Shown in pieces: positions 379-33,949 of a DNA stretch of 36,345 nucleotides (positions within the stretch are counted from its first letter, which is position 1; each line of letters opens with the position of its first letter). The stretch is from Thermovirgaceae bacterium (GTDB lineage: Bacteria; Synergistota; Synergistia; Synergistales; Thermovirgaceae). The notes under the pieces were generated by a model. It made no database searches, was not told the origin of the DNA, and saw only the letters and a list, made by a program, of their open reading frames with translations. The stretch is from assembly GCA_030656095.1 (NCBI GenBank), contig JAUSOU010000146.1, forward strand, positions 1 through 36,345. The letters run 5' to 3'. A program made the translations under genes and the position numbers.

Positions 379-381
379 AAA

Positions 382-435
382 GGACAATAGGCATTATTGT
401 GCCGTGTCCCCTTTACGCGGGGAGACGGTTTTTTT
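382..435 (+). terminator. Riboswitch expression platform: intrinsic terminator before tupA
   Basis: CCGTGTCCCC (402-411) pairs with GGGGAGACGG (419-428), with one mismatch, around TTTACGC and is followed by seven T (429-435). Upstream, ACAATA (384-389) pairs with TATTGT (395-400), and GGACA (382-386) could instead pair with TGTCC (405-409), which would break the terminator. This is the arrangement expected of transcriptional control by the preceding aptamer. Confidence 0.75.
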
Positions 436-482
436 GTGCGCGGAGCACGCTCCGTGAACTTATGGAACAGGAGTTGATTTAC

Positions 483-1307: not shown

Positions 1308-1321
1308 CCTGCCCCCCATAG

Positions 1322-1368
1322 AGGCCCCCGCATCTCTCTAGAATGAGACCGGTGCGGGAGTCTCTTTT
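1322..1368 (+). terminator. Possible attenuating hairpin between tupA and tupB
   Basis: CCCGCA-TCTC pairs with GAGA-(CCGG)-TGCGGG between about 1326 and 1358, followed by TCTCTTTTG. The T-run is weak, so partial termination or a 3'-end stabiliser that keeps binding-protein mRNA in excess is more likely than a full stop. The 142-base gap otherwise holds only the tupB ribosome-binding site. Confidence 0.4.
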
Positions 1369-1449
1369 GTATTATATTGGGAACGCTACATGCCGGGGCC
1401 ATCGTCAACAACGTTTTCTATCAGTGTTTGAAAAACAGGGGGTTTTTTT

Positions 1450-2145
1450 ATGGACTACCTCAGCGAGGGTTTCAGTACGGCATTCAGGATCCTTTTTTCA
1501 GGTCAGGAAGAGACTTACAGCGCCATCTTTACCACACTAAAGGTCTCTACTTTTTCGATCATCTGCACGCTTGCCGCAGGGATACCGCTGGGGTTTCTGC
1601 TGGGATACTACAATTTCCCGGGTAAACGGACATGCCGCGCGGTCGTTGATACCCTTCTTGCCCTCCCCACAGTCGTTGTTGGCCTCCTGGTATATGCCTT
1701 CATATCAAGGAGCGGACCTCTTGGAGGCCTTGGGCTGCTTTTTTCCCTTAAAGGAGTTGCGATAGGCCAGTTCATACTGGCTCTTCCAATAGTGATCTCC
1801 CTCACGGCCTCCGCTACGGAACAGATGGAAAATACGATCCGTCTCACTCTGATGACTCTGGGAGCTTCGCCGAGCCAACTTGCGGCGAGTTCTCTCTGGG
1901 AGAGCCGCTATGCGGTACTTGCTGCGTCCATGACGGCCTACAGCCGCATAATCTCCGAGGTTGGAGTCTCGATGATGCTCGGTGGAAACATCAAGTGGCA
2001 CACAAGGACAATAACCACCGCCATAGCACTGGAGACGGGAAAGGGACAGTTTGCTGAGGGGATAGCCCTTGGGATTGTTTTGCTGGGTTTCGCCTTCACT
2101 GTCAATGCGGCCGTTTCCATTTCCAGAAGGAGGGCGTCGAGTTGA
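1450..2145 (+). CDS. tupB: Tungstate ABC transporter permease
   Basis: Membrane permease of the tungstate importer, 231 residues. Several hydrophobic helices are visible (about 32-52, 66-90, 98-125, 150-170, 200-222), and the EAA-type loop that contacts the ATPase appears as LGASPSQLAASSLWESR. The downstream segment SRIISEVGVSMMLGGNIKWHTRTITTAI has the E-x-G-x-x-x-M-x-G-G-N pattern typical of tungstate/molybdate permeases. The start follows a G-rich site (CAGGGGG). The stop overlaps the TTG start of tupC (TTGA), so the two are translationally coupled. Confidence 0.92.
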   Translation: MDYLSEGFSTAFRILFSGQEETYSAIFTTLKVSTFSIICTLAAGIPLGFLLGYYNFPGKRTCRAVVDTLLALPTVVVGLLVYAFISRSGPLGGLGLLFSLKGVAIGQFILALPIVISLTASATEQMENTIRLTLMTLGASPSQLAASSLWESRYAVLAASMTAYSRIISEVGVSMMLGGNIKWHTRTITTAIALETGKGQFAEGIALGIVLLGFAFTVNAAVSISRRRASS

Positions 2146-3167
2146 CTTCTATCTACGAACTCAGCAATGTAACCCAATCCTACGCCGGTCGGACCATTCT
2201 CGACATACGCAACATGAAGATCGTAAAGGGAAGCATCCTGGGAATAACCGGCCCGAACGGCAGCGGCAAGAGCACCCTGCTCAGGATCCTGGCCTTCCTT
2301 GAGAAACCCGGAACCGGTAAGGTTTTTTTCAAAGGGAAAGCTGTCCGTGAGATCGGAGAGGATCTCCGCCGGGAAGCCACGCTGCTACTCCAGGAATCAC
2401 GCCTTCTGAAGAGATCCGTCTTCGACAACGTCGCCTACGGACTCAGGGCAAGGGGGCTCGTTGATCATCTTCGTGAAAACGTTGCTCAGGCGCTCTCTCA
2501 GGTCGGACTCGATCCAGGGCAGTTCGCCGGGCGCGCATGGTTCGAACTCTCCGGTGGCGAAGCTCAGAGGGTCGCCCTAGCATCCCGGATCGTCCTGAAA
2601 CCAAAAGTCCTTCTGCTGGACGAACCGACCGCCAGCATCGATATCCAAAGTGCCCGGATAATCGCGAAGGCGATCCTGGAAGCCCGAGAAAATCTGGATA
2701 CCACCGTAATAATTGTAAGTCATGATCTTGAGTGGGCATACAGCGCGTCGGATGAGATAATTTCAATGCATTCCGGAAGGATCCACTCCCGGGGGCCGGA
2801 GAACATCCTGCAGGGGCCTTGGGAAAATTGCGGGGAAAACATGGTCTGCCGCCGTCTTGATGACGGGCAGACTGTTACTGTCCGGCAGCCCTCTCCCTCT
2901 CCCTCTACTGAGACGGCACTTCTGGATCCCGAGGACATAATCCTCTCCAAAGCGATCCCCGAACATATCTCGGCAAGGAACACTATCACAGGAAACGTCG
3001 TACGCATGAACCTCGAGAATGGAAAGGGGAGCGTCCTCGTGACGGTTCTTGCAGGAGGACAAACATTCACCTCCCGTATTACTTCGGATTCTCTGGCAAG
3101 ACTCAATCTTGTGCCAGGATCTCCCATTGCGCTTCTTTTCAAGGCGACCGCCATCCGTTGGGTTTAA
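2142..3167 (+). CDS. tupC: Tungstate ABC transporter ATP-binding protein with TOBE domain
   Basis: Cytoplasmic ATPase that drives TupB. Walker A GPNGSGKST is at 37-45, signature LSGGE at 136-140, Walker B LLLDEP at 157-162 and the switch His in SHD at 193-195. A serine/proline-rich linker (about 249-257) leads to a C-terminal TOBE/Mop-like domain (about 275-340, beginning SARNTITGNVVRM). In ModC-type ATPases this domain can bind the oxyanion, so feedback inhibition by tungstate is possible (inference). The start is TTG, supported by AGGAGGG upstream and by overlap with the tupB stop. Length 341 residues, longer than TupC proteins without the TOBE domain. Confidence 0.92.
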   Translation: MTSIYELSNVTQSYAGRTILDIRNMKIVKGSILGITGPNGSGKSTLLRILAFLEKPGTGKVFFKGKAVREIGEDLRREATLLLQESRLLKRSVFDNVAYGLRARGLVDHLRENVAQALSQVGLDPGQFAGRAWFELSGGEAQRVALASRIVLKPKVLLLDEPTASIDIQSARIIAKAILEARENLDTTVIIVSHDLEWAYSASDEIISMHSGRIHSRGPENILQGPWENCGENMVCRRLDDGQTVTVRQPSPSPSTETALLDPEDIILSKAIPEHISARNTITGNVVRMNLENGKGSVLVTVLAGGQTFTSRITSDSLARLNLVPGSPIALLFKATAIRWV

Positions 3168-9843: not shown

Positions 9844-12495
9844 TCAGTTCACTTCCTTTCCAGGTTCATTTCGGTTTTCGGGCAGATCAGCGGGAAAGTT
9901 CCCGACTATCCACTCCAGCTCATCCTCACGGGTTTCCACGCCTCCGTCAAGCCGGGCCATTTTCAATCCTGAAAGGATCATTCCTATTCGTGGACCCTCA
10001 TGATACCCCATCCCGATAAGATCCCTTCCTGTGAGCATAGGCTCCACCTTCTGAAGGCGTGTGAGATAGAGAAGTATCCTTCTCCTGACCCTCCAGCGCT
10101 CGGTCGTTGATGCCCAGAAAAACGCGGTTATCGGGCTGTATTCACTCAGGAACATGAATATATGCGACGGTTTCTTCTCCCCCCTTCCGCCAAGACTGTG
10201 CTCTGCTGCCCCAAGCTCAAAGAGCCCCTTTACGGCTATATCCCGCTCTCCCGGGGAGAGGTTGAGCCTGTCCAGGACCTTCAGGTCAACTCCGTCGGGG
10301 GAGTCGGCCAGGAGTGCCATAAGGGACGCGATCCAGGCCCTCTCTCCCATGTCCGGGATATCCCTCATCAGCCTCATTCTGAAGGCGTCCAGCCGCCGAA
10401 GGGTTCTCATCGCTCCCCTATCAAGCACAAGTCCCGGGAATACGGCCCTCCAGAAACCAAGAAAATTCAGCCGCCGGACGATCCCAAGGGTCCTTTCCTC
10501 AAGTAAGAGCGGTTCGATCTCGCTGCGAAGCCGCACTCCCGAGAGAAGGGAGAGAAGCCCTCCCTTGATGCAGTTTTCCAGAAGCCGCAGCGTGTTGTCC
10601 TCCATTTTGAAGCCAAGGCGCTGTTCCAGGCGAACCCCCCGGATGACCCTTGTCGGGTCCTCTACGAAACTAAGATTGTGGAGCACCCTCAGCATCCTGC
10701 CCTGGACATCCTGGCGTCCGGCAAAATAATCGACCAGCATCCCCCAGCTTGCTCTGGTTATGGATATGGCCATTGCGTTAACCGAGTAGTCCCTGCGGTA
10801 AAGGTCATGCTTGAGGGAGTCTATCGAAACCTGCGGCTGAGCCACCGGGTATTCGTAGAACTCGCGCCTGGCGGTAGCCACATCAACCTTGCGGCCATCG
10901 GGGAAAATAATTGTTCCGGTCCTGAATCTCTGATGGATCGCCACCCGGCAGCCATCCTTAACCCATGATTCCAGAAAGGCTACGGCATCCCCCTCTATGA
11001 CTATATCAAGATCCTCATTTGGCCTTCCGAGAAGCAGGTCACGGACAAAGCCTCCGACCACGTATGCCGCCACGCCCATACCGGAAGCCCTGTCTCCGAG
11101 TTTCCGCAGCAGCGCTGATACCGGCGCCTTAAGAAAGGCGGCCATGATCCCCGAAACTTTTTCGATCCATGGCATCTCCGGAGCCACGATCCTTGCCTCT
11201 GATGGAAGGGACCTTGGGAACAGCGCCCTCAGAATATCCGTCCGAGTCACTATTCCCAGGATCTCGCCGTCCCTGGTTACGGGGATCCGTCCGATGTTTC
11301 TGGACACCATCATCCGGTGCGCCTCTGCTACGGAGGCCCCGAGCATGATGGTCAGGGGATCCCCGGTCATATAATCCTCGACAAGAGCCGAGCCCAGACC
11401 GTGGATCTTTGCCTTGTCGAGGTCTTTCCGGGTGATGATCCCCAAAAGTTTTCCATCAAGCGCCACCGGCAGGGCTGCGTGTCCGTACCTTATCATCAAC
11501 CTGTAGGCTTCCTCGACCGATACTTCCGGGGATATCGCCATAACTGGACTTGTCATAACCTCGCTGACGGAAACCAGGGGCTGGATGGCCTGTTCAAGGC
11601 GGCCTTCCAGATCTGCGAGAACATCCTGGGGGACCACTCCAGTGAGCGTTACCGCCGCAGCCTGTGAGTGCCCACCTCCCCCAAGTGGCGAAAGGAACTT
11701 GGCAACGTCGATTATCTCCTCTCTCCCCCTGGCAACGACATAGACCTTTTTCTCCATCTGGACGGCGGCAAGGACCACATCCGCGTCGAAGTAATCCCTC
11801 AGGCGGTGGACAAATAGCGACAGGCCATCCACATAAACCGGGTTCGACATTGACGAAAGGACCACCTTGGCCCCGTGAATGTACCTCTCCCTTGCGTTTT
11901 CGATAAGCCTGTCAAGGATCCTGCGTTCCGAGCTGTCCAGGGGAAGTTCAATGTGCGCGGAGATCGCCGTCATATCCGCACCCAGGGCCTTGAGGCTTAA
12001 TACGGCCCGGAAATCTTTTTCCGATGTAGCCCCGAAGGTCAGGGCTCCTGTATCTTCGTAAATCCCCATGGCAAAGAGAGTCGCTTCCTGGGGAGATATG
12101 GCAATTCCCTCTTCAAGGAGTATTTCGACAAGAATCGTAGTTGTGGCGCCAACAGTCTCTATAACCGAAAAATCTGCATTAATGTCATCCTGGACGGCAG
12201 AGTGATGGTCATACACGTGAACCTCGAGGCCGGGGCGGCCGAGAATGTCCGCGAAGGAGGCGATCCTCGCCGGCGACCTTGCGTCCACGACGATAAGGGT
12301 CGTTATCAAGTCCATGTCTATCTGGCTTGGGGTGAGGACCTCCCATCTTCCCTGGTTGCGCTTGAGAAACTCCCTTACGTTGCGCCCCGCCGAGCCCGAA
12401 AAACAGGGCCTGGCTCCGGGGTAGAGCTTTGAGGCCGCAACCATTCCGGCAAGGGAATCAAAGTCGGCCCCGATGTGAGTTGTGATGATCTTCAA
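9844..12495 (-). CDS. tRNA nucleotidyltransferase/poly(A) polymerase fused to DHH and CBS domains
   Basis: An 883-residue fusion. The N-terminal DHH phosphoesterase domain has HIGADFD (7-13) and YDHHS (95-99), and its DHHA1 part has GGGGHSQA (272-279). Two CBS domains follow (about 310-367 and 372-427). The C-terminal half is a class II nucleotidyltransferase with VVGGFVRD (479-486) and the catalytic DLD after NE (493-497), followed by helical tRNA-binding domains. The enzyme should build or repair tRNA 3' CCA ends, or add only part of CCA or a poly(A) tail; DHH may degrade RNA or nano-RNA ends. CBS domains suggest adenylate sensing. The start is TTG 12495, overlapping the coaE stop as TTGA, with GGAGGG upstream; an ATG at 12549 is less likely. 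Confidence 0.9.
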   Translation of the reverse strand: MKIITTHIGADFDSLAGMVAASKLYPGARPCFSGSAGRNVREFLKRNQGRWEVLTPSQIDMDLITTLIVVDARSPARIASFADILGRPGLEVHVYDHHSAVQDDINADFSVIETVGATTTILVEILLEEGIAISPQEATLFAMGIYEDTGALTFGATSEKDFRAVLSLKALGADMTAISAHIELPLDSSERRILDRLIENARERYIHGAKVVLSSMSNPVYVDGLSLFVHRLRDYFDADVVLAAVQMEKKVYVVARGREEIIDVAKFLSPLGGGGHSQAAAVTLTGVVPQDVLADLEGRLEQAIQPLVSVSEVMTSPVMAISPEVSVEEAYRLMIRYGHAALPVALDGKLLGIITRKDLDKAKIHGLGSALVEDYMTGDPLTIMLGASVAEAHRMMVSRNIGRIPVTRDGEILGIVTRTDILRALFPRSLPSEARIVAPEMPWIEKVSGIMAAFLKAPVSALLRKLGDRASGMGVAAYVVGGFVRDLLLGRPNEDLDIVIEGDAVAFLESWVKDGCRVAIHQRFRTGTIIFPDGRKVDVATARREFYEYPVAQPQVSIDSLKHDLYRRDYSVNAMAISITRASWGMLVDYFAGRQDVQGRMLRVLHNLSFVEDPTRVIRGVRLEQRLGFKMEDNTLRLLENCIKGGLLSLLSGVRLRSEIEPLLLEERTLGIVRRLNFLGFWRAVFPGLVLDRGAMRTLRRLDAFRMRLMRDIPDMGERAWIASLMALLADSPDGVDLKVLDRLNLSPGERDIAVKGLFELGAAEHSLGGRGEKKPSHIFMFLSEYSPITAFFWASTTERWRVRRRILLYLTRLQKVEPMLTGRDLIGMGYHEGPRIGMILSGLKMARLDGGVETREDELEWIVGNFPADLPENRNEPGKEVN

Positions 12496-13340
12496 CTTCC
12501 CGTACCCTCCATAGCCCACAAAAGAACGTGCTTCGGGACGAATGCGCACTTTTGGACCGCGACAGGCAAACCGCCCCCCGGATGCACTTTTTCAAGCAAA
12601 GCCGAAACTTCTTCAAGGCTCCCCCGCCTGACGAAGGCGGAAACAAAAAATCCGGAATCTGGTATTCGAACCTCGGCGGCAAGGCCGCTTCCGCTGAGAA
12701 TTCCGCAGATCAGGCCAGCTTCATCGGCTGAAAGCTCACCGACGGAGATCAGCATTATAGAAGATGCCGCAAGAAAACGGCGCGCGAGATCCCTTGCCTC
12801 GCGCTCGAGCCTTTCCAGACTGCCATCGTTCGTCATCACGAGATCGGCCATGCCCTGTTTTTTGCTTCGCTCCAGAAGCCAGCGCTCACGCCTTATCATC
12901 TCTTCCGGACCCCAACCCCGTGATCTGTTCCGGGAAAACCTGAGTTCCATGGCAGCCTCGACGTAAACCGTCAGATCGATCCATTCCGGCACTCCATTCT
13001 CGAAAAGGAGAGGGATCTCCGCCACAACCCATCCGTCAAGGCGCCTGACCCTTTCGGCCATTATCTCCCGGACCATCGGATGGATGGCATCGCAGAGCCA
13101 GCGGTATTCGGTCTCGTCATCAAACACTATGCGGGATACGGCAGCGTGGTCGGGCATTCCGTCGCCGGAGAGGATCACGCGCCCCCATCTCCCTGTGGCA
13201 AGCGATATCACCTCTTCCGTTTTCCAGAGTTCCGCGACAACGGCGTCGGCGTCCACCACATGTGCGCCCGCGGCCGCCCAGATAGAGGAAAGGGTGGATT
13301 TACCCGCCCCAACGTCTCCGGTTAGGCCAACCGCCAGCAT
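12492..13340 (-). CDS. coaE: Dephospho-CoA kinase with CutA-like C-terminal domain
   Basis: Final step of coenzyme A synthesis: phosphorylates dephospho-CoA. The kinase part (1-192) shows the P-loop GDVGAGKST (8-16), DADAVVAELW, the H-P in CDAIHPMVR and the EIPLLFE block. The product has 282 residues while CoaE is normally about 200. Residues 194-282 form an extra domain whose pattern (MLISVGELSADEAGL, AAEVRI, VHPGGGLPV, LLW near the end) resembles the ferredoxin-like fold of CutA. It would have a shortened central hairpin and lack the usual HPYE-P motif. Start ATG 13340 has GGAGGAGGG upstream and lies 41 bases inside pcrA. Confidence 0.88.
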   Translation of the reverse strand: MLAVGLTGDVGAGKSTLSSIWAAAGAHVVDADAVVAELWKTEEVISLATGRWGRVILSGDGMPDHAAVSRIVFDDETEYRWLCDAIHPMVREIMAERVRRLDGWVVAEIPLLFENGVPEWIDLTVYVEAAMELRFSRNRSRGWGPEEMIRRERWLLERSKKQGMADLVMTNDGSLERLEREARDLARRFLAASSIMLISVGELSADEAGLICGILSGSGLAAEVRIPDSGFFVSAFVRRGSLEEVSALLEKVHPGGGLPVAVQKCAFVPKHVLLWAMEGTGS

Positions 13341-23678: not shown

Positions 23679-24158
23679 TCACTCTTCCTGCGGAAGCAAA
23701 AGGCCCAGGAGTTCGCCTACAGGGAAGGACTTTCCAGTAACTGTATCGACGAGGCTTCCCCCGGAACGGATCCAGACCTTCCAGCAGGCCCGGGCCTCGG
23801 ATTCTCTTGCCATAACATGAGAAGACCCGGCCAGGGCTCTCCACCCCTCCCGCCCTTCCGATACTCCCGCGCTCTCGGCGCTTGAAACTGCCCGGTCTAA
23901 TGCGACGTTCACGGGAAGTTTGCGGCCCTTTGGCTCTCCCCCGGCTATCTTCGGGACATTTTTAGCGGCAACAATGGAGACTCTTCCGCCCACCGCCTCA
24001 ACGATCGCCATAACTGTCTTGTACTCGGGCCTGGCAAGAAGGCCCGTGGTAAAAATCTCTAGCGGCACAATATATACCGGCTGGAGGAAGAGCTCATCCT
24101 GACCGCTCCATTGGACTGCTGGAACTAAATGGCCGCAGAATTCCTTGCCTGTCGCCAT
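23679..24158 (-). CDS. Hypothetical 159-residue protein
   Basis: I do not recognise it. The product starts MATGKEFCGHLVPAVQW after GGAGGGAAAAATT. It is soluble, with no signal peptide or membrane span; residues 40-75 look like an alternating beta/helix (YKTVMAIVEAVGGRVSIVAAKNVP) and the C-terminus has two tryptophans and GGSLVDTVTGKSFPVGELL. It follows the SRP RNA terminator. In many bacteria this locus carries dnaX, but there is no resemblance. The frame continues upstream through SRP RNA and tRNA genes, which is accidental. Confidence 0.7.
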   Translation of the reverse strand: MATGKEFCGHLVPAVQWSGQDELFLQPVYIVPLEIFTTGLLARPEYKTVMAIVEAVGGRVSIVAAKNVPKIAGGEPKGRKLPVNVALDRAVSSAESAGVSEGREGWRALAGSSHVMARESEARACWKVWIRSGGSLVDTVTGKSFPVGELLGLLLPQEE

Positions 24159-24172
24159 AATTTTTCCCTCCA

Positions 24173-24196
24173 TAAAAAAGCGACCCCTTGCAGGGG
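24173..24196 (-). terminator. Terminator after SRP RNA
   Basis: CCCC-TGCAA-GGGG on the minus strand, then TCGC and TTTTTT. It partly overlaps the terminal stem of the SRP RNA. Confidence 0.65.
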
Positions 24197-24294
24197 ACCC
24201 AGCGCTCCTGCTGCACCAGAAAGGCCATATACCGCTGCTCCCTTCCGGGCCTGGCGGGGTTTTATGGACTTTCGTCGCACAGGACTGGATCCCC
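24193..24294 (-). ncRNA. ffs: Signal recognition particle 4.5S-type RNA
   Basis: RNA of the protein-targeting particle that binds Ffh. The diagnostic apical domain CAGGCCCGGAAGGGAGCAGC is present in the minus strand (CCGCCAGG-CCCGGAAGG-GAGCAGCGG), and GGGATCCAG at the 5' end pairs with CTGGGTCCC at the 3' end, giving a hairpin of about 102 bases without an Alu domain. It lies just downstream of a tRNA-Ser, a common neighbour. Confidence 0.93.
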
Positions 24295-24314
24295 AGCAAA
24301 AAATCGCCAAAGTT

Positions 24315-24402
24315 TGGCGGAGAAGGAGGGATTCGAACCCACGGGACGTTGCCGCCCAGACGCTCTCCAAGCGCCCGCCTTCGACCACTCGGCCACTTCT
24401 CC
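24315..24402 (-). tRNA. tRNA-Ser (GGA)
   Basis: A class II tRNA of 88 bases including encoded CCA. Acceptor stem GGAGAAG/CTTCTCC; anticodon stem GGCGC/GCGTC enclosing loop TTGGAGA, so anticodon GGA; long variable arm and T-arm GGGTTCGAATCC. It reads UCC/UCU. Confidence 0.96.
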
Positions 24403-24429
24403 ATTAGTCAACACTCAGTATATCAAATA

Positions 24430-24523
24430 TGGCGGAGAGAGTGGGATTTGAACCCACGAGACGGCTCATCACCGCCTAGACGATTTCGAGTCGCCCGCCT
24501 TCGACCAACTCGGCCATCTCTCC
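24430..24523 (-). tRNA. tRNA-Ser (CGA)
   Basis: A class II tRNA of 94 bases with encoded CCA. Acceptor stem GGAGAGA/TCTCTCC; anticodon loop CTCGAAA between GGCGA and TCGTC gives anticodon CGA, reading UCG. Long variable arm with GGCGGTGATGAGCCG. The first 48 bases overlap the 3' end of tadA on the same strand. Confidence 0.96.
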
Positions 24524-25003
24524 AACCTGCTCCCGACCCTTAATGCGGCGGGCCTGAAAGAACTCCCGGAGCATTTTAGCACATTCTTCCGCGAGAATAC
24601 CACCGGTTACGATGCACTGATGATTCAATCTTTTGTCACGCGGTATGTCGTAAAGAGTACCGCATGCTCCCCAGTGGAGATCCCTCGCCCCGAAAACGAT
24701 TTGCCTCACCCTTGCCTGAACCATGGCGGCAGCGCACATAGGACATGGCTCCAGAGTCGAATAGACAATGCTCTCCTCCAAAAGCCATCTTCCGGTACTG
24801 GCAGCGGCTTCCCTTAGAGCCAAAATTTCGGCGTGAGCTGTCGGGTCATTGAGGCTCTCGCGAAGATTGTGTCTCCTGCCTTTTACGCTGCCGCCGATCA
24901 CTACAAGGGACCCGACAGGCACCTCTCCTGCCGCGACCGCGGTCAGCGCTTCTTCGATCGCAATGCGCATGAATATTTCATGTCTGACCCGCTCGCTATC
25001 CAT
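24476..25003 (-). CDS. tadA: tRNA-specific adenosine deaminase
   Basis: Converts A34 of tRNA-Arg(ACG) to inosine. The 175 residues have the zinc/catalytic HAE (57-59) and PCPMC (86-90) motifs and typical NHQCIVTGGIL. ATG 25003 has AAGGAG nine bases upstream. The last 16 codons are read from the sequence of tRNA-Ser(CGA), ending at TAG 24478-24476, so processing of the tRNA would cut the mRNA's 3' end. Gene order tadA, tRNA-Ser, SRP RNA is a conserved theme. Confidence 0.94.
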   Translation of the reverse strand: MDSERVRHEIFMRIAIEEALTAVAAGEVPVGSLVVIGGSVKGRRHNLRESLNDPTAHAEILALREAAASTGRWLLEESIVYSTLEPCPMCAAAMVQARVRQIVFGARDLHWGACGTLYDIPRDKRLNHQCIVTGGILAEECAKMLREFFQARRIKGREQVGEMAELVEGGRLEIV

Positions 25004-25044
25004 GCTGGGCAACTCCTTATCAAGTATACGGCGAGAATTGTATC

Positions 25045-25071
25045 AAAAAAGGGCCTCCCGAAAGAGGCCCT
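25045..25071 (-). terminator. Terminator of the exopolysaccharide operon
   Basis: GGGCCTC pairs with GAGGCCC around TTTCGG and is followed by TTTTTTGA on the minus strand, 23 bases after the BcsB-like stop. Confidence 0.9.
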
Positions 25072-25093
25072 TCATAATTGATGTGGGAGATCC

Positions 25094-27598
25094 TCAGCGT
25101 TTTCTCATGCTTCTGACGAGAGAAACGAAGAGCACAAACAGCACCAGGGATGTTCCCAGCGCGAATATGCCCACCGTGGTCCTGTCGCCGCGGAACCGCT
25201 CCAGTATCTTTTCGTACCACTGCTGCGGCGTTTTGGCCGACGGTTCCGGCTCCGGAGTCTCCAGGTAGAATGGAATAACACGGCCGTCCGGCGAGACCAG
25301 GCAGACATCTCCGCGAAGGCGTGCTCTGACAAGGGCATCGTTGAACATCTCGCCGTCGGGGATCGTCCTGGCCCACCCCATTACCAGAGACAGGCTGGAA
25401 TCCTTCTGGGCGAGAAGTTGGAAAATGGCGGCACTCTCTCCGAACTCCGGGACCACAGGGACACTCTGCCCCGAGATGATCCTGGCGTTCTTTGCATCGT
25501 ACCCCACTGAGATCGGGATACCCTTGGCAACTATCTCCGAAACCGGCGCGACTATGACCGAATGCCCCTCGGGCTTGTCCCAGGAGAAGGACGCCAGACT
25601 CTTGACGGTAAGGGAGAGATCCCCCAGGAGACTCTGCTGCCAGTTGATCAGGATATGCCCGAGTGAAGTCAGGGCGCTTCCGCTCACGTTGGGACTCAGA
25701 TAAACCGTCATAGTCTTGTCGGATATCGCGTAAGGAAGAAACTCGAGCAGGGGTGCTACACGCTTCAGGCTGTGAGGAAGATGGAGATACGAGGACTTGT
25801 CAACGACAAGCCAGGCTGCCTCTGTGAAGTTGTGCCCGCAGTCGAAGGTGTCGATATCGAGATAAGCCCTCATGTTGAAGTTGAGGAAATCTCCGCCCTT
25901 GAGGTCTTTCGGAACAGGTACAACCAGGCGCCCCTCCTCCGAGGTCGTAATTCCCAGGGGCACCGATTTTCTGGGCACATCATCGAAATCAACGGTCAGT
26001 GCAGACTTCCTCGCATTCAGCACCGGTGAGTGCCTGTATCGCAGGACTATCTGGGGTGTCCCCTCCAACTCCCATTGCGGGGGAATCCTGAAAGACATGA
26101 ACTGCTCGTGGCTGTAGGTTCCCCGGAAGACTACATCACCGGTGAACACTTCAGAGAAAGGAAGTTCCGCTTCCATTTCGCTCCTGACCTGTATTTGCGG
26201 AAGCGGCGTATTCAGAGCCAGGGATAGTTTCCTGACATTCATCTGTTCCTTGAGTTCGGGGAGCATCATTGCCCGGACCCCGAAACGGACGCCCTGGGAT
26301 GTTTCCGCTGTGATCAGGAGTCTCCCCTTGCCGAAGCTGTTGAGGAACGATGACAGGTAACACAACCCCTTTATGGAATCCGGGGTTCCGAAGGATTCAA
26401 GCACCGTCTTGGGCAGCTTGTCCTTCCTCCCTATATAGATGATGTGAAAGGTCGAAGCGATCTCCGGGGTTACCGCGCTCGCGGGAACGACGCGCGGCCG
26501 GAAATCCTTGAACCTGGACTTTCGGGCCCAGGAAATGAGCATGTCGAACGCCGCTTCTGCCTCTGCCGGCTCAAAGTCGTCCGGTATCACTATGACACTG
26601 TTGTCCTTGTGATTAAGGTTGTTCTCGAAGAAGGGAGAGGTGAAATTCATCAGGCGCAGATCGCTTCTGGGCAGGTATCGCATATGCACGAAGCTCTCCC
26701 GGTGAATTCGCATCCAGTTGCCGGGGTTGTCGATATCCTGGCACTGTTCATCTATGGACCTCATGTAACTGTTCAGAGTTATCGTGTTTGTCCCCTCCCC
26801 GAAATATTCGGGGCTCACCGGGATCTTGATCTCGCCCTTCCAGACGTTCTTTGTGTCCATTACGATAGTGTAGATGGGGTCGTTATTTACGCTGACCACA
26901 ATGTTGGAGAGCTTGGGGTTTGTCGTTTGGGAGTGGCTCAGGACCAAGTGTATATAGCTTCCGTCGAGAACCTTCCAGGTCGGGGAAATATCAACAAAAA
27001 AGGACTGGGTCGAAAAAACGCTGCCGACCGAAATATCAGTTGTGGTGAGCGTCGAGTTGAATGTCTGGGAATCTTTTCCGTAAGTCCCCGGAGCCGACAC
27101 AAGCCCTTGCGTGCCTGTAGCGGACGCAGGGGCGGAAACCTGCGCTTCGCTTTTTTCGGTCAGCTTGGGTTCGGCGGCCTGAGCGGCTCTTTCCGGGGAC
27201 AGGTCGAGGACGATCCTGTCCGGTTTCGAAAGAGCAAAGTGCTTGATCGAAACCCCGGGGGTCCTGAGGGCTATGCTGACTATTGTGTCGCTCCCCGAGG
27301 AGGTGGCGCGATAGGACAAAGCGGCCCTGTTAGACGGGAAATTTCCGGATGTCTCACGTGGACTCCCCGTCCTGACAGTCACTTTAACCTCGCTGTTGGT
27401 CTTGACCACTGAATACTCGGAGGTTCGGTCCAGATCGATCACTATTCTGGCTCCGTCCAGCTGCAGTCCTGTCCGGATGGAATTTACGGAGCACTCCCCC
27501 AACCATGGCGTCGTCAGAACCCCCAGAGCGAGAACTCCCGCAAACGTTAAGCACAAAATACCCCGGGAAAAATCACTGCCTGACAGCTTCACTATCAT
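25094..27598 (-). CDS. BcsB-like polysaccharide synthase subunit with AMIN-like N-terminus
   Basis: Periplasmic, membrane-anchored partner of the glycosyltransferase, 834 residues. A signal peptide (1-35) is followed by an AMIN-like beta domain (about 40-135: GARIVIDLD, DRIVLDLSP), a low-complexity Ala/Glu/Pro linker (136-185) and the BcsB body with FGEGTNTITLNSYM and a Cys in SIDEQCQD. A single C-terminal helix (near 805-828, VGIFALGTSLVLFVLFVSLV) precedes basic RSMRKR. In cellulose synthase BcsB guides the chain across the periplasm. ATG 27598 overlaps the glycosyltransferase stop by one base (TGATG). The frame stays open upstream inside the preceding gene but that part is not coding. AMIN domains bind peptidoglycan or envelope partners, so fusion here is unusual. 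Confidence 0.85.
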   Translation of the reverse strand: MIVKLSGSDFSRGILCLTFAGVLALGVLTTPWLGECSVNSIRTGLQLDGARIVIDLDRTSEYSVVKTNSEVKVTVRTGSPRETSGNFPSNRAALSYRATSSGSDTIVSIALRTPGVSIKHFALSKPDRIVLDLSPERAAQAAEPKLTEKSEAQVSAPASATGTQGLVSAPGTYGKDSQTFNSTLTTTDISVGSVFSTQSFFVDISPTWKVLDGSYIHLVLSHSQTTNPKLSNIVVSVNNDPIYTIVMDTKNVWKGEIKIPVSPEYFGEGTNTITLNSYMRSIDEQCQDIDNPGNWMRIHRESFVHMRYLPRSDLRLMNFTSPFFENNLNHKDNSVIVIPDDFEPAEAEAAFDMLISWARKSRFKDFRPRVVPASAVTPEIASTFHIIYIGRKDKLPKTVLESFGTPDSIKGLCYLSSFLNSFGKGRLLITAETSQGVRFGVRAMMLPELKEQMNVRKLSLALNTPLPQIQVRSEMEAELPFSEVFTGDVVFRGTYSHEQFMSFRIPPQWELEGTPQIVLRYRHSPVLNARKSALTVDFDDVPRKSVPLGITTSEEGRLVVPVPKDLKGGDFLNFNMRAYLDIDTFDCGHNFTEAAWLVVDKSSYLHLPHSLKRVAPLLEFLPYAISDKTMTVYLSPNVSGSALTSLGHILINWQQSLLGDLSLTVKSLASFSWDKPEGHSVIVAPVSEIVAKGIPISVGYDAKNARIISGQSVPVVPEFGESAAIFQLLAQKDSSLSLVMGWARTIPDGEMFNDALVRARLRGDVCLVSPDGRVIPFYLETPEPEPSAKTPQQWYEKILERFRGDRTTVGIFALGTSLVLFVLFVSLVRSMRKR

Positions 27599-28863
27599 CA
27601 CCCCGCCCTCTCCGTCTTTACCCAAAAGTCTCCACCTTTTCTGAAAAGCGACAAAAAGCCCTTGATAAGAGCGTTGAACATCACGAGCAGCCAAAGCTGG
27701 CTGTAGGTAAAATACATTACAAGGGCGACAGCCAGGTTCGCGATCCTGTCCTCGCCGGGCTCCGCCGTCAGCGAAATTCCCATCTCGATCACAAAAAGCA
27801 CCGCGGCGAGAAACCACAGAATATTGAAAGGGCCTTCCAGAACGATGTTTCCAAAGCCCGTCAATCCCAGCAGGAATATCACGAGCGAAGTCGTAACGCT
27901 CGTCAAAAACAGAAAGTAGATCAGAACCATGTAAAGAACATCCCAGTATAGCCGGAATTTGCCCCGAAAAAGCAGGGACAGAAAATACTTCCTCAGAACG
28001 TAGATGTTGCCCCTGGCCCACCTGGTGCGCTGCCTGAACCAGACTGACCATCTTTCCGGTTCCTCTTCCCACGTAACAGAATAGGGAACCATCTTTATGA
28101 ACTTTCCCGCCAAGTATATCCTGATGGAAAGCTCCGTATCCTCGGTAAGGGCTTTGGGATCCCAGCCTCCGAGTGATTTTATCAGGTCGGTCCATACCAC
28201 AAAATTCGTCCCCGGTATGGTCGCAAGCCGGTAAAGGCTCCACCTGCCAGCCTGCGTTGTCCACTGAAAGAAGATCGTCTCCAGATTGATAAACCTCGTA
28301 AGAAGGTTTCTGTCCTGATTGCGGGTTCTGAATTTGCCGATAACCGCTCCAAGAGTATCTCTGCCCTCTACAAGATTTCTGACCAGGTAGAGCAGAGCGC
28401 TCTTTTCGGGGGTGTTGTCAGCATCGTATACAGCTATTATCTCACCCGTTGCGTGCTCCAGTCCAAAATTCAGAGCCTCCGCTTTTCCCCTGCCGGATCT
28501 TTCTTTGGGGACCGTCAAAACCTTGACCCGGCCCTTTGAAGCGGCGCAGACTTTCTGGGCGATCTGGCCGGTTCTGTCGCTCGAGCCGTCGTTGATGCAG
28601 ATGATCTCGACTTTTCCGGTCGGGTAGTCCATTGAAGCAAGAGAGAGCAGGGTCTTCTCTATAACGGCCTCCTCGTTGTGGGCAGGGACGAGAACGGTAA
28701 CTGAAGGCAGTTCGCCGATGGGAGAGCTGTCAATCCGGCGTTTCTCTTCGGCCGCCACGATTGAATACCTGTAGCCGGCATAGGAGAGGATCACGTGATA
28801 AAGGAGAACGCTCCAGATAACTATAAGGCAGACAATGAAGATATAATCGAGCGGACCGATCAT
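27598..28863 (-). CDS. Processive family 2 glycosyltransferase (cellulose/PNAG synthase-like)
   Basis: Membrane GT2 that should polymerise a beta-linked glycan and export it, 421 residues. N-terminal helix 5-28; catalytic domain with DGSSD (92-96), DAD of YDADN (147-149), TED (240-242) and QRTRW (278-282), the processive-synthase set. Helices at about 306-335, 345-365 and 375-405 follow. There is no PilZ domain, unlike BcsA. The size resembles PgaC/IcaA and short cellulose-synthase-like enzymes. ATGA overlap with the preceding DUF2334 gene and one-base overlap with the BcsB gene. The sugar cannot be inferred with certainty; the DUF2334 neighbours favour an N-acetylated sugar. Confidence 0.9.
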   Translation of the reverse strand: MIGPLDYIFIVCLIVIWSVLLYHVILSYAGYRYSIVAAEEKRRIDSSPIGELPSVTVLVPAHNEEAVIEKTLLSLASMDYPTGKVEIICINDGSSDRTGQIAQKVCAASKGRVKVLTVPKERSGRGKAEALNFGLEHATGEIIAVYDADNTPEKSALLYLVRNLVEGRDTLGAVIGKFRTRNQDRNLLTRFINLETIFFQWTTQAGRWSLYRLATIPGTNFVVWTDLIKSLGGWDPKALTEDTELSIRIYLAGKFIKMVPYSVTWEEEPERWSVWFRQRTRWARGNIYVLRKYFLSLLFRGKFRLYWDVLYMVLIYFLFLTSVTTSLVIFLLGLTGFGNIVLEGPFNILWFLAAVLFVIEMGISLTAEPGEDRIANLAVALVMYFTYSQLWLLVMFNALIKGFLSLFRKGGDFWVKTERAG

Positions 28864-30383
28864 TCCCGGAACATCTCCCTTTTCTTGCGCCTTGTCTGGC
28901 GGAAATAAATCGCCCCAAGGACGATCGCCCCCGACACTCCCACGAAAAGGGGGATAAACCTGGTAAGCGGGACCTTGGTGAAAGCCAGTTGCCAGATGGG
29001 AGGCACCTCTACAACCTCGACAAGTGGATCTCCACCATAATCCTTCGCGCCCGCAAACTCAAATCCCCTATCCCTTATCTGCGGGATAAGCTCCCGGAGG
29101 TAGAGATCACCGGCAACATAAGGGTGATAGAAGAAACAGGCGAACGGATCCCTGACGATGCTGGTCAGGGTATCGAGCCGTTCGAGAATTGTTATTATCG
29201 ACATTTTCTCGGCGTCTGTGGCTATGTAGCCCAGCTGTTCGGGAAGAACAGTGAGTCCCTCCCGGGATTTGTATATTATGTAGGGAAAATCCTGGGAAAT
29301 GGTGTAACTTTCATCGGATATCATGAGAGATCCGGCGATGGTTCCGAAGTACTGCGTCAACTCCCTCTGAAGGCTGAGAGGCATATTGTAGTGAGGCGCC
29401 TCGAAGAGCTTGGGGTGCAGGCCCGCCTCCTTGAAAAGCCACAATCCGTACCGCATTCTTTCATGGAAGTACGCCTTCTCCTCGGGAATGAAATCGTCCG
29501 CATCGACATCCCAGAACTCGGACCCCTCCCCCGAAACCTGGTGATACTGGTGTGAGGTTCCATGCATGATGACCGTTCCGCCCATCCTTTCAGCCTTGAT
29601 CAAAACATCCAGCAGGGGCGGGTTGTCGATCAGTAGAAGTGCGCGCGGTGCGCCTTTGGCGTTTATGAAGACCGGAAATACCGCCATGGAAAAGGGCACA
29701 CCCTCACTGTAAAGGAAGTCTATAGAATCCTTGAGCCTTTTCAACCTCTCTCCGGAGTATGACGGGTTGATGTCCTCAAGCCTTACCATCGCCAGTCTTT
29801 TCGGAGAATGCGGCGCCTCCAGAATATCGTGAAGGACATCGGCCAGGATCCAGGCCGGAACCTCGAACATCGGGGCGCCATGGATCATCCAGCGGTTGCC
29901 TTCTCTCTCTATGAAGGGAACCGCTTCAGACGACTGGGACATCGCAACAAACGTCTTTCCAAATGTCTTTGACATCTTTTTTATGGAGAAGTCGTCCAGC
30001 CAGAAGCTTTTTCCTCTGTAGGTCACAAGATCGCATTCGTATTGTGATGGAAGAGCGCCAAGCCAGCGGTGTTCCCCGGCAAAGACTGTTATTCCGCTTC
30101 TCTTTTCCAGAGCGTTCCTGATATCCTCTCCGGGAACCGGCGAATCGTAGGACAGAAGAATAAAAACGGCGCCGGCTGAAATAATATCGCCGGGGTCGGC
30201 CTGGTCCAGACTTGCCGTTCTGGCATCATACTCCCTGAAATGCCCCAGCAGGTTGACAAGGGTGTTGGCGAAGGTCTCCGTCATGCCGTCATGAAGGACC
30301 AGCGCCGACTGAGCGGCGAAGGCTGTCCCGCATATAATGACGTTTGCAAAAAGAGCCGTTGCCAGGGCAAAGATCCTTTTCAA
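28860..30383 (-). CDS. DUF2334 membrane-anchored deacetylase-like protein (metal motifs intact)
   Basis: A 507-residue exported protein: signal peptide 1-23, C-terminal membrane helix about 472-494 and basic cytoplasmic tail. The centre resembles DUF2334, a divergent polysaccharide-deacetylase-type (NodB/CE4-like) fold. RLEDIN (201-206) supplies an acidic residue, HGTSHQYH (274-281) a His triad, and FEAPHYNMP a further His. Deacetylation of the nascent polymer outside the membrane is inferred. TTG start overlaps the preceding gene's stop (TTGA), with GGAGGAGG upstream. Paralogous to the next gene upstream, which has lost these residues. Confidence 0.82.
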   Translation of the reverse strand: MKRIFALATALFANVIICGTAFAAQSALVLHDGMTETFANTLVNLLGHFREYDARTASLDQADPGDIISAGAVFILLSYDSPVPGEDIRNALEKRSGITVFAGEHRWLGALPSQYECDLVTYRGKSFWLDDFSIKKMSKTFGKTFVAMSQSSEAVPFIEREGNRWMIHGAPMFEVPAWILADVLHDILEAPHSPKRLAMVRLEDINPSYSGERLKRLKDSIDFLYSEGVPFSMAVFPVFINAKGAPRALLLIDNPPLLDVLIKAERMGGTVIMHGTSHQYHQVSGEGSEFWDVDADDFIPEEKAYFHERMRYGLWLFKEAGLHPKLFEAPHYNMPLSLQRELTQYFGTIAGSLMISDESYTISQDFPYIIYKSREGLTVLPEQLGYIATDAEKMSIITILERLDTLTSIVRDPFACFFYHPYVAGDLYLRELIPQIRDRGFEFAGAKDYGGDPLVEVVEVPPIWQLAFTKVPLTRFIPLFVGVSGAIVLGAIYFRQTRRKKREMFRE

Positions 30384-31954
30384 CTGAAGAGATCCCTCCT
30401 CCGTCCCGCGGAGCGCTTAAGGTATATCATCAAAAGAAGCAGTCCCACGGCCGCCCCGAGATACAGAATCGCGTAGGCTGACCTTATCCCGATCCGCCTG
30501 GTCCTCTCGAAACCGCTGAGATCATCGATCTGCGCAATTCCATTGGCAAGAACCACACCCGAAGGAAGGTCGGGAGGAAATTCAGTGGAATACCCCTGCT
30601 TTTTCATCTCAAGGATAATAATTTCAAGCATCTCCACTCCAAGGGACGGGTCATAGGCAAACGACCCCAGGGCACCCCTGACTACAGTCATGTCAAGGCT
30701 TCGACCGAGAATGAGGGAAACTGTCTCCTGGGGGTTGTAGCGGGAAACATAACCCAGGTTCTCGGGCAAAAAAATCATGTTCCTGATTTCCGCCATAAAC
30801 GGCGGAACATAGGAAGCTTCCGACGTCATGTCACTCGTCTGCAACCTGCCCACATAAAGATCAAACCTGTCCCCGACAATATCCAGGAGACCGGGGGGCA
30901 GCTTGTAGGCGGGTGCCATGAAGCCGGAAGGGTGTATCCCGAGTCTGGAGGAGACGGTCAGTCCGTCGGCCATTCGCGTCCTGAGGACCTCCTTCCCGCC
31001 TGGAAGCGGATGATCGTTCTCAAAATCCCAGAACTCGGCCGCGTTCTCGTAGGGAATCCTGTGGTAGTTTCCCGCAAAGCCCCGCATGATGATCGGGACC
31101 CCCTGTTCCGAGAGGCGCCGAAGGGCTTCAGCGAGGGGCCTGTTCCTGGCTATCGTGACAAGCTTGCCCGTTCCCCCCTCCCAGTTGGCCGGGGAATAGG
31201 AGACCGCAAAAGGAACAGCCTGCTTCGACAGCCATTCCGTGACTTCATTCAGCCTGCTCGCGTCAAAGAAGGGGTCTATCCCGTCAAGGCGTACAAAAAG
31301 GGTTCTCTTCTTCCATCCGGTCCCCAGGGCGTCGTGGAGAAGGTCCGCAAAAACCAGCTCTCCCCCTTCCCAGAATGGAACCCCTGCAAAGAGCCAGAAC
31401 GATCTCTCCGGAATGTGGATGGCCAGGGGAACGGACCTTTGAAGGTCAGTGGCTTCAGCCAGGACTTTGGCGCCGCCCCCGGCCTCGAAAATAGCCGTCT
31501 GCTGCTGTTTTCCTGCAAAAATAGTCCTTTCTCCATATACGACGTGGTCAAAATCAAAGGGAACTCCCCCCCCTACGCGAATTCCGGGTGGTAGTTCTTT
31601 TGGTATTCCCGGTCCTGCCCACACGACGGGCCCTGAGTTTTCAGGAATGGGAATTTGGGAAACGCCCTCCAGGGTGGAAAGAATTACAACCCCGTCAAAA
31701 TTTTCCCCATCCTTCGGGACAAAATCTCCGGATCCCCTCACGACAACCTCTTTTGCAAAATGCGAAAGCAGCACGCGCATCATAAGTACCGGATCCGCCG
31801 TGCTCGATGGCAAAAGGTCCCCGGAATCGTGAACGAGGAGAACTCGGCCGACGCGGGACGATTTCGCCTGCGCGGGCTGAACCAGCGGAAGGGTCATCAG
31901 AATCGTAAGGAAAATCATTAAAGATCCCCAACAGGACCACCTAACCGTGGTCAT
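30380..31954 (-). CDS. DUF2334-like protein lacking metal-type residues
   Basis: A 524-residue paralogue with the same plan: signal peptide 1-30 (ending AQA), a DUF2334-like body, a C-terminal membrane helix and basic tail. The positions equal to the metal motifs have changed: RLEDIN becomes RLDGID (222-227), HGTSHQYH becomes RGFAGNYH (291-298), and APHY becomes APAY. It is therefore probably inactive as a hydrolase and may act as a scaffold, glycan-binding subunit or regulator of its neighbour (inference). Start ATG 31954, supported by GGAGGGATT; it overlaps the GGDEF gene by 14 bases. Confidence 0.8.
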   Translation of the reverse strand: MTTVRWSCWGSLMIFLTILMTLPLVQPAQAKSSRVGRVLLVHDSGDLLPSSTADPVLMMRVLLSHFAKEVVVRGSGDFVPKDGENFDGVVILSTLEGVSQIPIPENSGPVVWAGPGIPKELPPGIRVGGGVPFDFDHVVYGERTIFAGKQQQTAIFEAGGGAKVLAEATDLQRSVPLAIHIPERSFWLFAGVPFWEGGELVFADLLHDALGTGWKKRTLFVRLDGIDPFFDASRLNEVTEWLSKQAVPFAVSYSPANWEGGTGKLVTIARNRPLAEALRRLSEQGVPIIMRGFAGNYHRIPYENAAEFWDFENDHPLPGGKEVLRTRMADGLTVSSRLGIHPSGFMAPAYKLPPGLLDIVGDRFDLYVGRLQTSDMTSEASYVPPFMAEIRNMIFLPENLGYVSRYNPQETVSLILGRSLDMTVVRGALGSFAYDPSLGVEMLEIIILEMKKQGYSTEFPPDLPSGVVLANGIAQIDDLSGFERTRRIGIRSAYAILYLGAAVGLLLLMIYLKRSAGRRRDLFS

Positions 31955-32807
31955 ACTCGTAATCCCTCCTTGCAATGTTAAGCAAGGGGATATACTCTTC
32001 TCCATCCGCGGGGAAAGTGGCCGTGCCGATCCTGATTGTAAGGCGAATTCTTCTGAACTCCTCTCCCGCAGGGGAAATGTCCAGGTAAGGGAGGCGCTCC
32101 TTTACACGATCCGTCAGGATTTTTGTGCCGTCCTTTGGGGTGTTGGGCAGAACAAAAGAGAACTCGTCCCTTCCTATCCTGGACAGAAAGTCCTCGAGTC
32201 TCTTCATCCCCTTTAGCGTCTCAGCCACCTTCTGGATAACAAGTTTCTGGACGCGAAGACCGTGGACATCCTCGAGTTCCTCCAGAAAGGCGATCTTCAC
32301 AAGCATCACCGAGAACTCGCCGCCGTATCTTTTGCAGCGGGAGATCTCCTCAACAACCCTGAATGCGAAACGCTTCGCGTTGTCCAGGCCGGTCATCTCA
32401 TCGACGGCGACAAGATCCTCGATCTCCGTGCTGAGAGTGTTAAGCTTTTCGATGACACCATCGACCGACTCGTTGAGCGAGCCGCTGATAAAGGCCGCAG
32501 CCGGAACCGCCAGAAGCCAGAAAAGCTGGCTCGCCCCGATCAGAACGGGCTGCTGCAGCCAGAGTACGAGGCCGATCTTGATGGTGCCGTATCCGAAAAG
32601 AACTAAAAGGGCAACGATGAGGCTGCCCCGTAATCCCAGGGAAAGTCCTACGAACAGACACCCGGCCGTGACGATCGACATGACGTAATCCTCGAAGGGG
32701 ATCGAGAAGTTCATGAACTGCCAGGTAAATAAAACCATGAAGCCGCAAAAAGCCGCGGTGAGCTTGAGAAAAATGCTCCTCTTAAGGGCTCTTTCGGACA
32801 CCTGCAT
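31941..32807 (-). CDS. Membrane protein with degenerate GGDEF domain and intact I-site motif
   Basis: A 288-residue protein: about four membrane helices within residues 11-110, a short coiled linker, then a GGDEF-fold domain (135-288, opening with DEMTGLDNAKRF). The signature reads GRDEF (212-216) and the metal-binding D-x-D of the first strand is missing (VKIAFLEELED instead), so cyclase activity is unlikely. The inhibitory-site motif R-x-x-D (RLED, 203-206) is exactly five residues before the signature, as in c-di-GMP-binding GGDEF domains. A c-di-GMP receptor role, as for PelD, is inferred. ATG 32807 with GAGGGG upstream. Confidence 0.83.
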   Translation of the reverse strand: MQVSERALKRSIFLKLTAAFCGFMVLFTWQFMNFSIPFEDYVMSIVTAGCLFVGLSLGLRGSLIVALLVLFGYGTIKIGLVLWLQQPVLIGASQLFWLLAVPAAAFISGSLNESVDGVIEKLNTLSTEIEDLVAVDEMTGLDNAKRFAFRVVEEISRCKRYGGEFSVMLVKIAFLEELEDVHGLRVQKLVIQKVAETLKGMKRLEDFLSRIGRDEFSFVLPNTPKDGTKILTDRVKERLPYLDISPAGEEFRRIRLTIRIGTATFPADGEEYIPLLNIARRDYEYDHG

Positions 32808-32827
32808 CACACCCCTCTTGTTCGTCT

Positions 32828-33949
32828 TTAATTCCCGCTCCCCAAAACCGCTTCCATCGCAAGGAGCGCGATGAGGTTATCAAAAGCCCAGGCCGAATAC
32901 TTCCCTTCGCTCTCCTCATAGCACAGCAACCCCGAAAGGGCCGGTTCATCATTCCTGAAATCAAGCAGTCTGCCCAGCATCAGGAGGGCTTCTGTCTCCC
33001 TTCCGCTGTGGTGAAGAAACAACGCAGCCAGAGAAATAACGGAGATATTCTCATTACCATACCTGTCGAGCAGCTTTTCTGAGACAGCGGCCGAAGCAAA
33101 CGGATCAAACGTCCCGGGATGCACGAAACCCGCCTCCGCCAGATATAGAAGAGACATGGTCTTGCCGATAATCTCGTCGTCCTGGTCGGTCTCTTCGTAG
33201 GCGTTGGCGTCTGGGCGGAAGAGCCACCAGGGGGAATCGCGGCCCATGACTCCGGCCATGAGGACCCCGGACATTCTCTGCAGAACGGGAACCCACTCCG
33301 GGTCGATCTCTGAAAGCTGTCTCATGGCCATTATATCGGCGTATGCGAGAGTACTGGTGTCGTAAACCTGATCAACTCTGGCTTTACTTATGATGCCCGG
33401 TTTTTTCCAGGAGCATCCGTCCAACAGCAGACCGTCAACTACGTTGTATTTCAAAAGAGCCTCGCCTATGGACCTGGCCAGTTCGAGGTAATCGGGGTTT
33501 TCCCAACGCCTGTCGGCGAGGATCAGCGCTCTTGCCACTCGAAGATCGTCGACGGATGCGTTCCACAGCTCCGCGGTTTGGTGGTTTTCTTCGATCTTCC
33601 AGGGGAGAAGGCCCAGAGGGCCGATGAAAAAGGACTTCAGAAGCTTCACCTGTCGGTCGAAAGAGACCTTGTCCCCGCGTGAAAGGTGAAGCATCATCTC
33701 AAGGCCAACCGTCTCGGAAAGGAATGTCCTCTCCTCGGTATTGGTAAAAAGAAGTCCGGAAGTGCTCCTGAGACAGCCGTCAAGGCCTTTTAGTATCTGC
33801 CTCCTTGCTTCCTCCAGCTCACTTCTGATGGCCGCCTGAGGGAGGGGGGCGCCGCTGGCTTCGGGGCTGGCCTTGGTTATGTAATACACCCCCGAAAATA
33901 TGAGAATCAAAAACAAAAGAATTACCGGGATTTTTCTTTTTAAAAACAT
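32828..33949 (-). CDS. GH8-like glycoside hydrolase, membrane-anchored
   Basis: A 373-residue protein with a hydrophobic anchor (7-24) and short linker, then an alpha/alpha-barrel sequence of GH8/BcsZ type. LSETVGLEMM (77-86) aligns with SEGQSYGM, placing Glu79 at the general acid; ASVDDLRVARAL (131-142) aligns with ASDADLWIAYAL, placing an Asp at the base position. W and DDL motifs recur. Endo-cleavage of the operon's glycan during export is likely by analogy with BcsZ. Start ATG 33949 lacks an adjacent ribosome-binding site; GGAGG lies upstream across a 26-base hairpin. First gene of the operon. Confidence 0.78.
   Translation of the reverse strand: MFLKRKIPVILLFLILIFSGVYYITKASPEASGAPLPQAAIRSELEEARRQILKGLDGCLRSTSGLLFTNTEERTFLSETVGLEMMLHLSRGDKVSFDRQVKLLKSFFIGPLGLLPWKIEENHQTAELWNASVDDLRVARALILADRRWENPDYLELARSIGEALLKYNVVDGLLLDGCSWKKPGIISKARVDQVYDTSTLAYADIMAMRQLSEIDPEWVPVLQRMSGVLMAGVMGRDSPWWLFRPDANAYEETDQDDEIIGKTMSLLYLAEAGFVHPGTFDPFASAAVSEKLLDRYGNENISVISLAALFLHHSGRETEALLMLGRLLDFRNDEPALSGLLCYEESEGKYSAWAFDNLIALLAMEAVLGSGN

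Follow-up and report, generated by a model that had tools for sequence, protein, structure and literature searches.

The 36,345-nucleotide stretch analysed here (hereafter, the window), a contig (JAUSOU010000146.1) of a draft Thermovirgaceae genome in the phylum Synergistota (GCA_030656095.1), carries on its minus strand a six-gene locus that is very probably the Synergistota version of the ydaJKLMN/pss exopolysaccharide (EPS) machine, gated by cyclic di-GMP (c-di-GMP) and furnished with an additional, non-catalytic partner protein. Read from position 33949 down to 25094, the genes encode a GH8-family hydrolase, a GGDEF protein, two DUF2334 proteins (D2, then D1), a processive glycosyltransferase of family GT2 and a BcsB-like protein, and all six coupled genes listed in a preliminary description of the window were recovered. 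The gene set, its order, the motif states and the phylogeny are read directly from the sequences; the functional roles discussed below are predicted from them.

A ydaJKLMN-type operon in Synergistota

The preliminary description considered the composition of this locus unfamiliar, a view that did not survive comparison with the ydaJKLMN operon of Bacillus subtilis, whose five families (ydaJ, GH8; ydaK, GGDEF; ydaL, DUF2334; ydaM, GT2; ydaN, BcsB) occur in the same order (PMC13274460, PMC5422440, PMC7064775). In substance the gene set is that of an already named system, ydaJKLMN and the related Listeria pssA-E (PMC4125290), and not that of cellulose or poly-N-acetylglucosamine (PNAG) synthesis; a novel gene set is ruled out by the ydaJKLMN synteny. 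Beyond the known set there are only a second DUF2334 gene, inserted between the GGDEF gene and the usual DUF2334 gene, and an AMIN extension of BcsB. What is new is the Synergistota form with its enzyme-pseudoenzyme DUF2334 pair; the system itself has already been described in B. subtilis and Listeria.

Co-occurrence of these families, which the preliminary description had left to be checked, was found in loci of Bacilli, Bacillota and Synergistota. A GT2-alignment scan of named genomes matched Bacillus, Tumebacillus, Paenibacillus, Kurthia, Lysinibacillus, Exiguobacterium and others, and profile annotation recovered the order GH8-GGDEF-DUF2334-GT2-BcsB in 27 Bacilli loci, with the GGDEF gene split in one of them (L044). 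A DUF2334 protein at E <= 1e-15 was detected in 27 of 399 sampled Bacillota genomes; 20 sampled Bacillota DUF2334 loci comprise 12 with the full order, five outside such an operon and three cut by contig ends, one of which (L093) yielded no GGDEF match. Tandem DUF2334 genes were seen in none of the 399 sampled Bacillota genomes (up to three candidates scored per genome, with a positive control run). Because the order repeats in other phyla, the gene set is not a product of chance.

Within Synergistota the GT2 is present in five of 188 genomes, a patchy presence that suggests transfer or repeated loss. Two of the five operons, G075 (complete) and G067 (cut after the GT2 gene), show the plain order with one DUF2334 gene, and the doubled form is found in the window, G058 and AUK227, which represent three families. 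The single YdaL of the ydaJKLMN type is thus found in the former two and replaced by two copies in the latter three, and since copy number varies among Synergistota we do not hold a single YdaL to be defining. Adjacency and order otherwise agree with the type, the GT2 shares 42-48% identity with Bacillota YdaM along its length (44% with that of B. spizizenii), and the DUF2334 trees concur. The GT2-BcsB end of an operon was also found on a short contig (L041, 2-3241, plus strand) of a metagenome-assembled genome labelled Candidatus Atribacteria, with a GT2 56% identical to that of the window over the portion present; it is the only carrier among 50 genomes of its phylum, and the locus could be due to transfer or mis-binning.

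A putative enzyme-pseudoenzyme pair of DUF2334 proteins

As previously described, both DUF2334 paralogues are membrane-anchored, each with an N-terminal signal-like segment and one C-terminal transmembrane (TM) segment. A reading of both as deacetylases is plausible for D1 and has to be changed for D2, because D2 has lost every catalytic residue checked. D1 keeps the motif 1 Asp, both His residues of HxxxH and a late catalytic-type His, that is, a NodB-type Asp-His-His site. The corresponding D2 motifs read RLDG, RGFAG, APAY and YDP against RLED, HGTSH, APHY and YHP, leaving none of the three triad residues (0/3) and no CE4/CE18-type site.

AlphaFold2 models of D1 and D2 reached pLDDT (predicted local distance difference test) values of 91 and 82, with the predicted fold retained in D2. 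In the Protein Data Bank (PDB), D1 matches NDST1, an N-deacetylase/N-sulfotransferase, best, and CE4 deacetylases follow lower down among mixed other matches; D2 matches Agd3, a polysaccharide deacetylase of fungi, best, and the CE4 pseudoenzyme BA3943 is among its matches as well. Neither protein has a detectable sequence match to any solved chain, and the structural matches point to a deacetylase-type modular protein and nothing beyond.

In the DUF2334 tree, D2 of the window, G058 and AUK227 form one clade (support 96/86), D1 of all five Synergistota operons forms another (100/99), and the two are joined at 100/99; an outgroup-bearing tree returned the same grouping, with the D2 clade at 91/87. 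The topology places one old duplication, the origin of D1 and D2, in the Synergistota lineage sampled here, and two operons lack D2. The anchored, YdaL-like D1 would de-N-acetylate part of the emerging chain, and D2, its metal site lost, would most likely serve as a non-catalytic scaffold or polymer-guiding partner.

The alternative that the D2 gene is decaying towards loss is unlikely, though it has some support: D2 has long branches, D2 proteins of different genomes share only 28-29% identity where those of D1 share 45-47%, and D2 is missing from two of the five Synergistota operons. Against decay, the D2 frame is complete and open in the window and in G058 and runs open up to the contig edge in AUK227, that is, in three genomes of three families; its predicted fold, signal and TM segment are kept, its gene overlaps its neighbours, and single-copy YdaL proteins with dead sites persist in Kurthia, Lysinibacillus and others. 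We retain D2 as a putative functional partner.

Repeated loss of the YdaL metal site

Single-copy YdaL proteins without the metal triad were found in Kurthia, Lysinibacillus, Metasolibacillus, Rummeliibacillus, Savagea and Pseudogracilibacillus, as well as in B. xiamenensis and a near relative, Bacillaceae SAS-127 and two more Bacillota. In nine such loci (L036, L037, L038, L040, L042, L044, L050, L091 and L092) the rest of the operon is kept. On the DUF2334 tree, the metal site must have switched between the intact and the lost state five times or more; the L093 protein, scored as lost, is a truncated sequence and was excluded from the tree.

According to PMC13274460, which cites earlier work, B. 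subtilis cannot make this EPS without YdaL. This requirement, taken together with the repeated loss of the metal site, suggests that YdaL proteins have a non-enzymatic role and that enzyme activity is optional. A broader proposal, which we put forward tentatively and rate at somewhat below even chances, is that DUF2334/YdaL is primarily a structural part of the synthase, guiding the polymer or assisting assembly, with deacetylation optional; the Synergistota duplication would then have split the two jobs between a D1 enzyme and a D2 pseudoenzyme, and the AMIN-BcsB protein would link the synthase machinery to peptidoglycan in a diderm envelope. A literature search on DUF2334 returned only marine-metagenome work that, by title and abstract, is unrelated to EPS. 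YdaL offers an informative natural experiment, with the metal site kept or lost repeatedly inside the operon and both states side by side in Synergistota, so that whether YdaL is needed as enzyme or as scaffold becomes directly testable.

A degenerate GGDEF protein as predicted c-di-GMP receptor

The GGDEF protein is indeed degenerate, as first described: it has four TM segments and the motif series RLED-FLSRI-GRDEF, in which the RLED I-site is intact. The RxxD I-site is kept in all 44 YdaK homologues and the GGDEF motif in none of them (0/44), the only aligned sequence breaking this pattern being an additional, ordinary GGDEF gene beside one operon. In Sporosarcina koreensis (L039, 12450-13382, plus strand) an extra GGDEF gene with an intact motif, possibly a dedicated cyclase, directly follows a ydaJKLMN-type operon. 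The window genome encodes six other GGDEF matches, in four of which the frames retrieved show the GGDEF signature intact, and gave no PilZ match at 89% completeness.

In B. subtilis, YdaK depends on the Arg of its I-site both to bind c-di-GMP and to interact with the cyclase DgcK, and EPS production requires the I-site (PMC7064775, PMC5422440). Listeria PssE is likewise an I-site c-di-GMP receptor needed for EPS, with a Kd of 0.79 uM (PMC4125290). By homology and motif, the window protein is a predicted c-di-GMP receptor: its RxxD I-site would capture c-di-GMP that other parts of the cell produce, and the protein would then turn the synthase on, as extrapolated from the B. subtilis and Listeria work, filling the role that PilZ has in cellulose synthase. 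The earlier suggestion of a c-di-GMP-responsive, partly deacetylated polymer system thus holds in part: a c-di-GMP-responsive EPS in which a GGDEF relic stands in for PilZ is very probable and partial deacetylation plausible, but the system is very unlikely to be a distinct one.

That the window protein is instead a diguanylate cyclase of low activity that supplies the synthase locally seems improbable. Its GRDEF is the least decayed motif of the set, with DEF retained; yet the motif is lost in every homologue, including the nearest ones (DTGEF in G058, DEAEF in G075 and SEGEY in G067), and YdaK, according to PMC5422440, does not make c-di-GMP.

The synthase and its product

The GT2 was described as processive and free of PilZ, and no PilZ domain was found on it. 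Its D, DxD, ED and QRxRW (QxxRW) positions are invariant in 48 of 48 homologues; among GH8 homologues, the SE-motif Glu and the first of the two DD-motif Asp residues are invariant in 45 of 45. The YdaM-like membrane GT2 would polymerise an amino-sugar polymer and extrude it through the inner membrane, and the GH8-like protein would trim or release the chain. The Listeria pss polymer is given as N-acetylmannosamine-galactose (ManNAc-Gal) in PMC5422440, and B. subtilis ydaJKLMN yields GSL-1-reactive material (PMC13274460). A UDP-GlcNAc 2-epimerase family protein in the window genome would permit UDP-ManNAc synthesis and proves nothing by itself. The product may be a partly de-N-acetylated amino-sugar polymer.

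The view first taken of this locus, as a distinct and undescribed EPS system convergent with Yda/Pss rather than derived from it, is now highly improbable. It can draw on the Bacillus operon, which has neither two DUF2334 genes nor AMIN on BcsB, and on the rearranged order in AUK227 (D2-GT2-BcsB-GH8-D1), but five homologous families in a shared order, two Synergistota loci with the plain set, the GT2 identity to Bacillota YdaM across its length and the placement of both DUF2334 copies in one Synergistota clade (100/99) among YdaL proteins all speak for derivation. A cellulose (Bcs) or PNAG (Pga/Ica) variant has equally little to recommend it: a BcsB domain is present, PgaC/IcaA is the best NCBIfam model for the GT2 and cellulose synthases are the best solved-structure matches, but all equivalog cut-offs are missed (PgaC/IcaA, 155 bits against 422; CelA, 80 against 699; BcsB models, <=47 against 750), there is no PilZ and no BcsC, and the operon has no PgaB-type gene. 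Pel was rejected, as no PelD-, PelF- or PelG-type domains were found among the operon proteins, to which this search was limited, the rest of the genome not being searched.

The BcsB protein and the diderm envelope

The BcsB-like protein, YdaN-like and a putative periplasmic partner of the GT2, carries both domains of the AMIN-like/BcsB fusion originally noted. AMIN scores above the Pfam cut-off in the window and G075 proteins and is AMIN-like but below cut-off in AUK227; Pfam found none in six Bacillota YdaN proteins and none in G058, and because of this missing match in G058 the domain call is only moderately firm. AMIN domains direct periplasmic proteins to the cell envelope, and Synergistota are diderm; such targeting would suit the host. 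In G075, BcsB is directly followed by a porin-like protein with an SLH domain and by a 569-aa protein without Pfam family (L064, 2559-5719, minus strand). The SLH/porin-like gene is a possible outer-membrane partner, and we do not claim it as the exporter because it was not seen in the other Synergistota loci.

Several points weigh against reading the locus as a c-di-GMP-gated, partly deacetylating machine. The operon encodes no outer-membrane exporter and the genome gave no BcsC match, so that the way across the second membrane has no explanation and passage of the polymer through it is presumed. Motif 1 of D1 has a Glu where CE4/CE18 enzymes have the Asp catalytic base. Whole-length TM-scores to the best PDB matches are low (0.34 for D1, 0.31 for D2), so that the catalytic fold assignment is drawn from domain and motifs. 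Finally, the Synergistota members are known from sequence alone.

Operon layout and neighbouring features

The genes are tightly coupled (Table 1), with a 17-bp gap between GH8 and GGDEF and overlaps of 14 bp (GGDEF/D2), 4 bp (D2/D1), 4 bp (D1/GT2) and 1 bp (GT2/BcsB). The mechanical open reading frame (ORF) list starts the BcsB frame at 28264, a position inside the GT2 gene, and the likely start is therefore the ATG at 27598. A hairpin followed by a T-run sits after the BcsB stop codon, although a consensus terminator scan did not pick it up. Promoter scanning gave no more matches than chance.

Table 1. Features of the six-gene operon in the window.
Feature	Position	Strand	Evidence
ydaJ-like GH8-family hydrolase	32828..33949	(-)	PF01270, 28.3 bits (cut-off 24); start ATG at 33949; one N-terminal TM segment, 7-25
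ydaK-like GGDEF protein, predicted c-di-GMP receptor	31941..32810	(-)	PF00990, 75 bits; 4 TM; GRDEF and RLED
D2, putative DUF2334 pseudoenzyme	30380..32005, likely start 31954	(-)	PF10096, 72 bits; signal/anchor and C-terminal TM
D1, ydaL-like DUF2334, predicted de-N-acetylase	28860..30383	(-)	PF10096, 131 bits; N-terminal signal and C-terminal TM
ydaM/pssC-like processive GT2	27598..28863	(-)	PF00535/PF13641, 103 bits; PilZ-less
ydaN/pssD-like BcsB protein	25094..27598	(-)	PF03170, 115 bits; PF11741 (AMIN), 22.2 bits (cut-off 20.5); signal-like segment, C-terminal TM
Intrinsic terminator, operon end	25049..25072	(-)	Perfect 9-bp inverted repeat, 6-nt loop, then TTTTTT

The window is one contig of a 1.92 Mb draft genome. 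Neighbouring genes vary between genomes carrying the operon. Composition gave no signal of a recent foreign import, with a GC content of 52-56% in the operon genes against 54% for the window.

Elsewhere in the window, a molybdenum/tungsten cofactor riboswitch (RF01055, 72.5 bits; 275-392, plus strand) lies upstream of an ABC-transporter set comprising a binding protein, a permease and an ATPase with a TOBE domain (258-3167); since the mechanical ORF start takes in the riboswitch, the binding protein probably begins farther downstream. On the minus strand, positions 9844-12549 encode a 901-aa protein with DHH, CBS and poly(A)-polymerase/tRNA-nucleotidyltransferase domains, and 24193-25012 hold a tadA-like deaminase gene, whose frame overlaps the first of two following tRNA-Ser genes by ~50 bases, and a small signal recognition particle (SRP) RNA. 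A 241-aa ORF (23679-24404) is probably spurious, as it spans RNA genes.

Comparison with known systems

The Bcs and Pga/Ica systems share with the window the processive GT2 family and the BcsB domain, and differ in that the window lacks PilZ and BcsC and falls below every equivalog cut-off. Agd3 (CE18) and NDST1 are the best solved structural neighbours of D2 and D1, respectively, and D1 shares the NodB-type D / HxxxH / H site; Agd3 and PelA (CE21) act on exported amino-sugar polymers (PMC7229062, PMC12022489). The differences are that no solved chain has a detectable sequence match to D1 or D2, that the whole-length TM-scores are low and that the synthase context is another one.

The pssA-E operon of Listeria monocytogenes, likened here by description and not by sequence, is alike in its GT2 (PssC), BcsB (PssD) and degenerate GGDEF I-site receptor (PssE) and in making a c-di-GMP-activated EPS, and differs in that pssE comes last and the glycosidase lmo1913 lies in another operon (PMC4125290). 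The closest counterpart is B. subtilis ydaJKLMN, which has the same five families and order, a four-TM degenerate GGDEF protein with RxxD, a PilZ-less GT2 with a BcsB partner, a membrane DUF2334 protein and a GH8-type hydrolase. The window differs from it in having a second DUF2334 gene, with a dead site in one of the two copies, in the AMIN-like N-terminus of BcsB, in its Synergistota host and in a GT2 at 44% identity; SigB control is a trait of the B. subtilis operon. The EPS machine with a c-di-GMP-binding I-site, known in Bacillus and Listeria, thus very probably extends to the phylum Synergistota.

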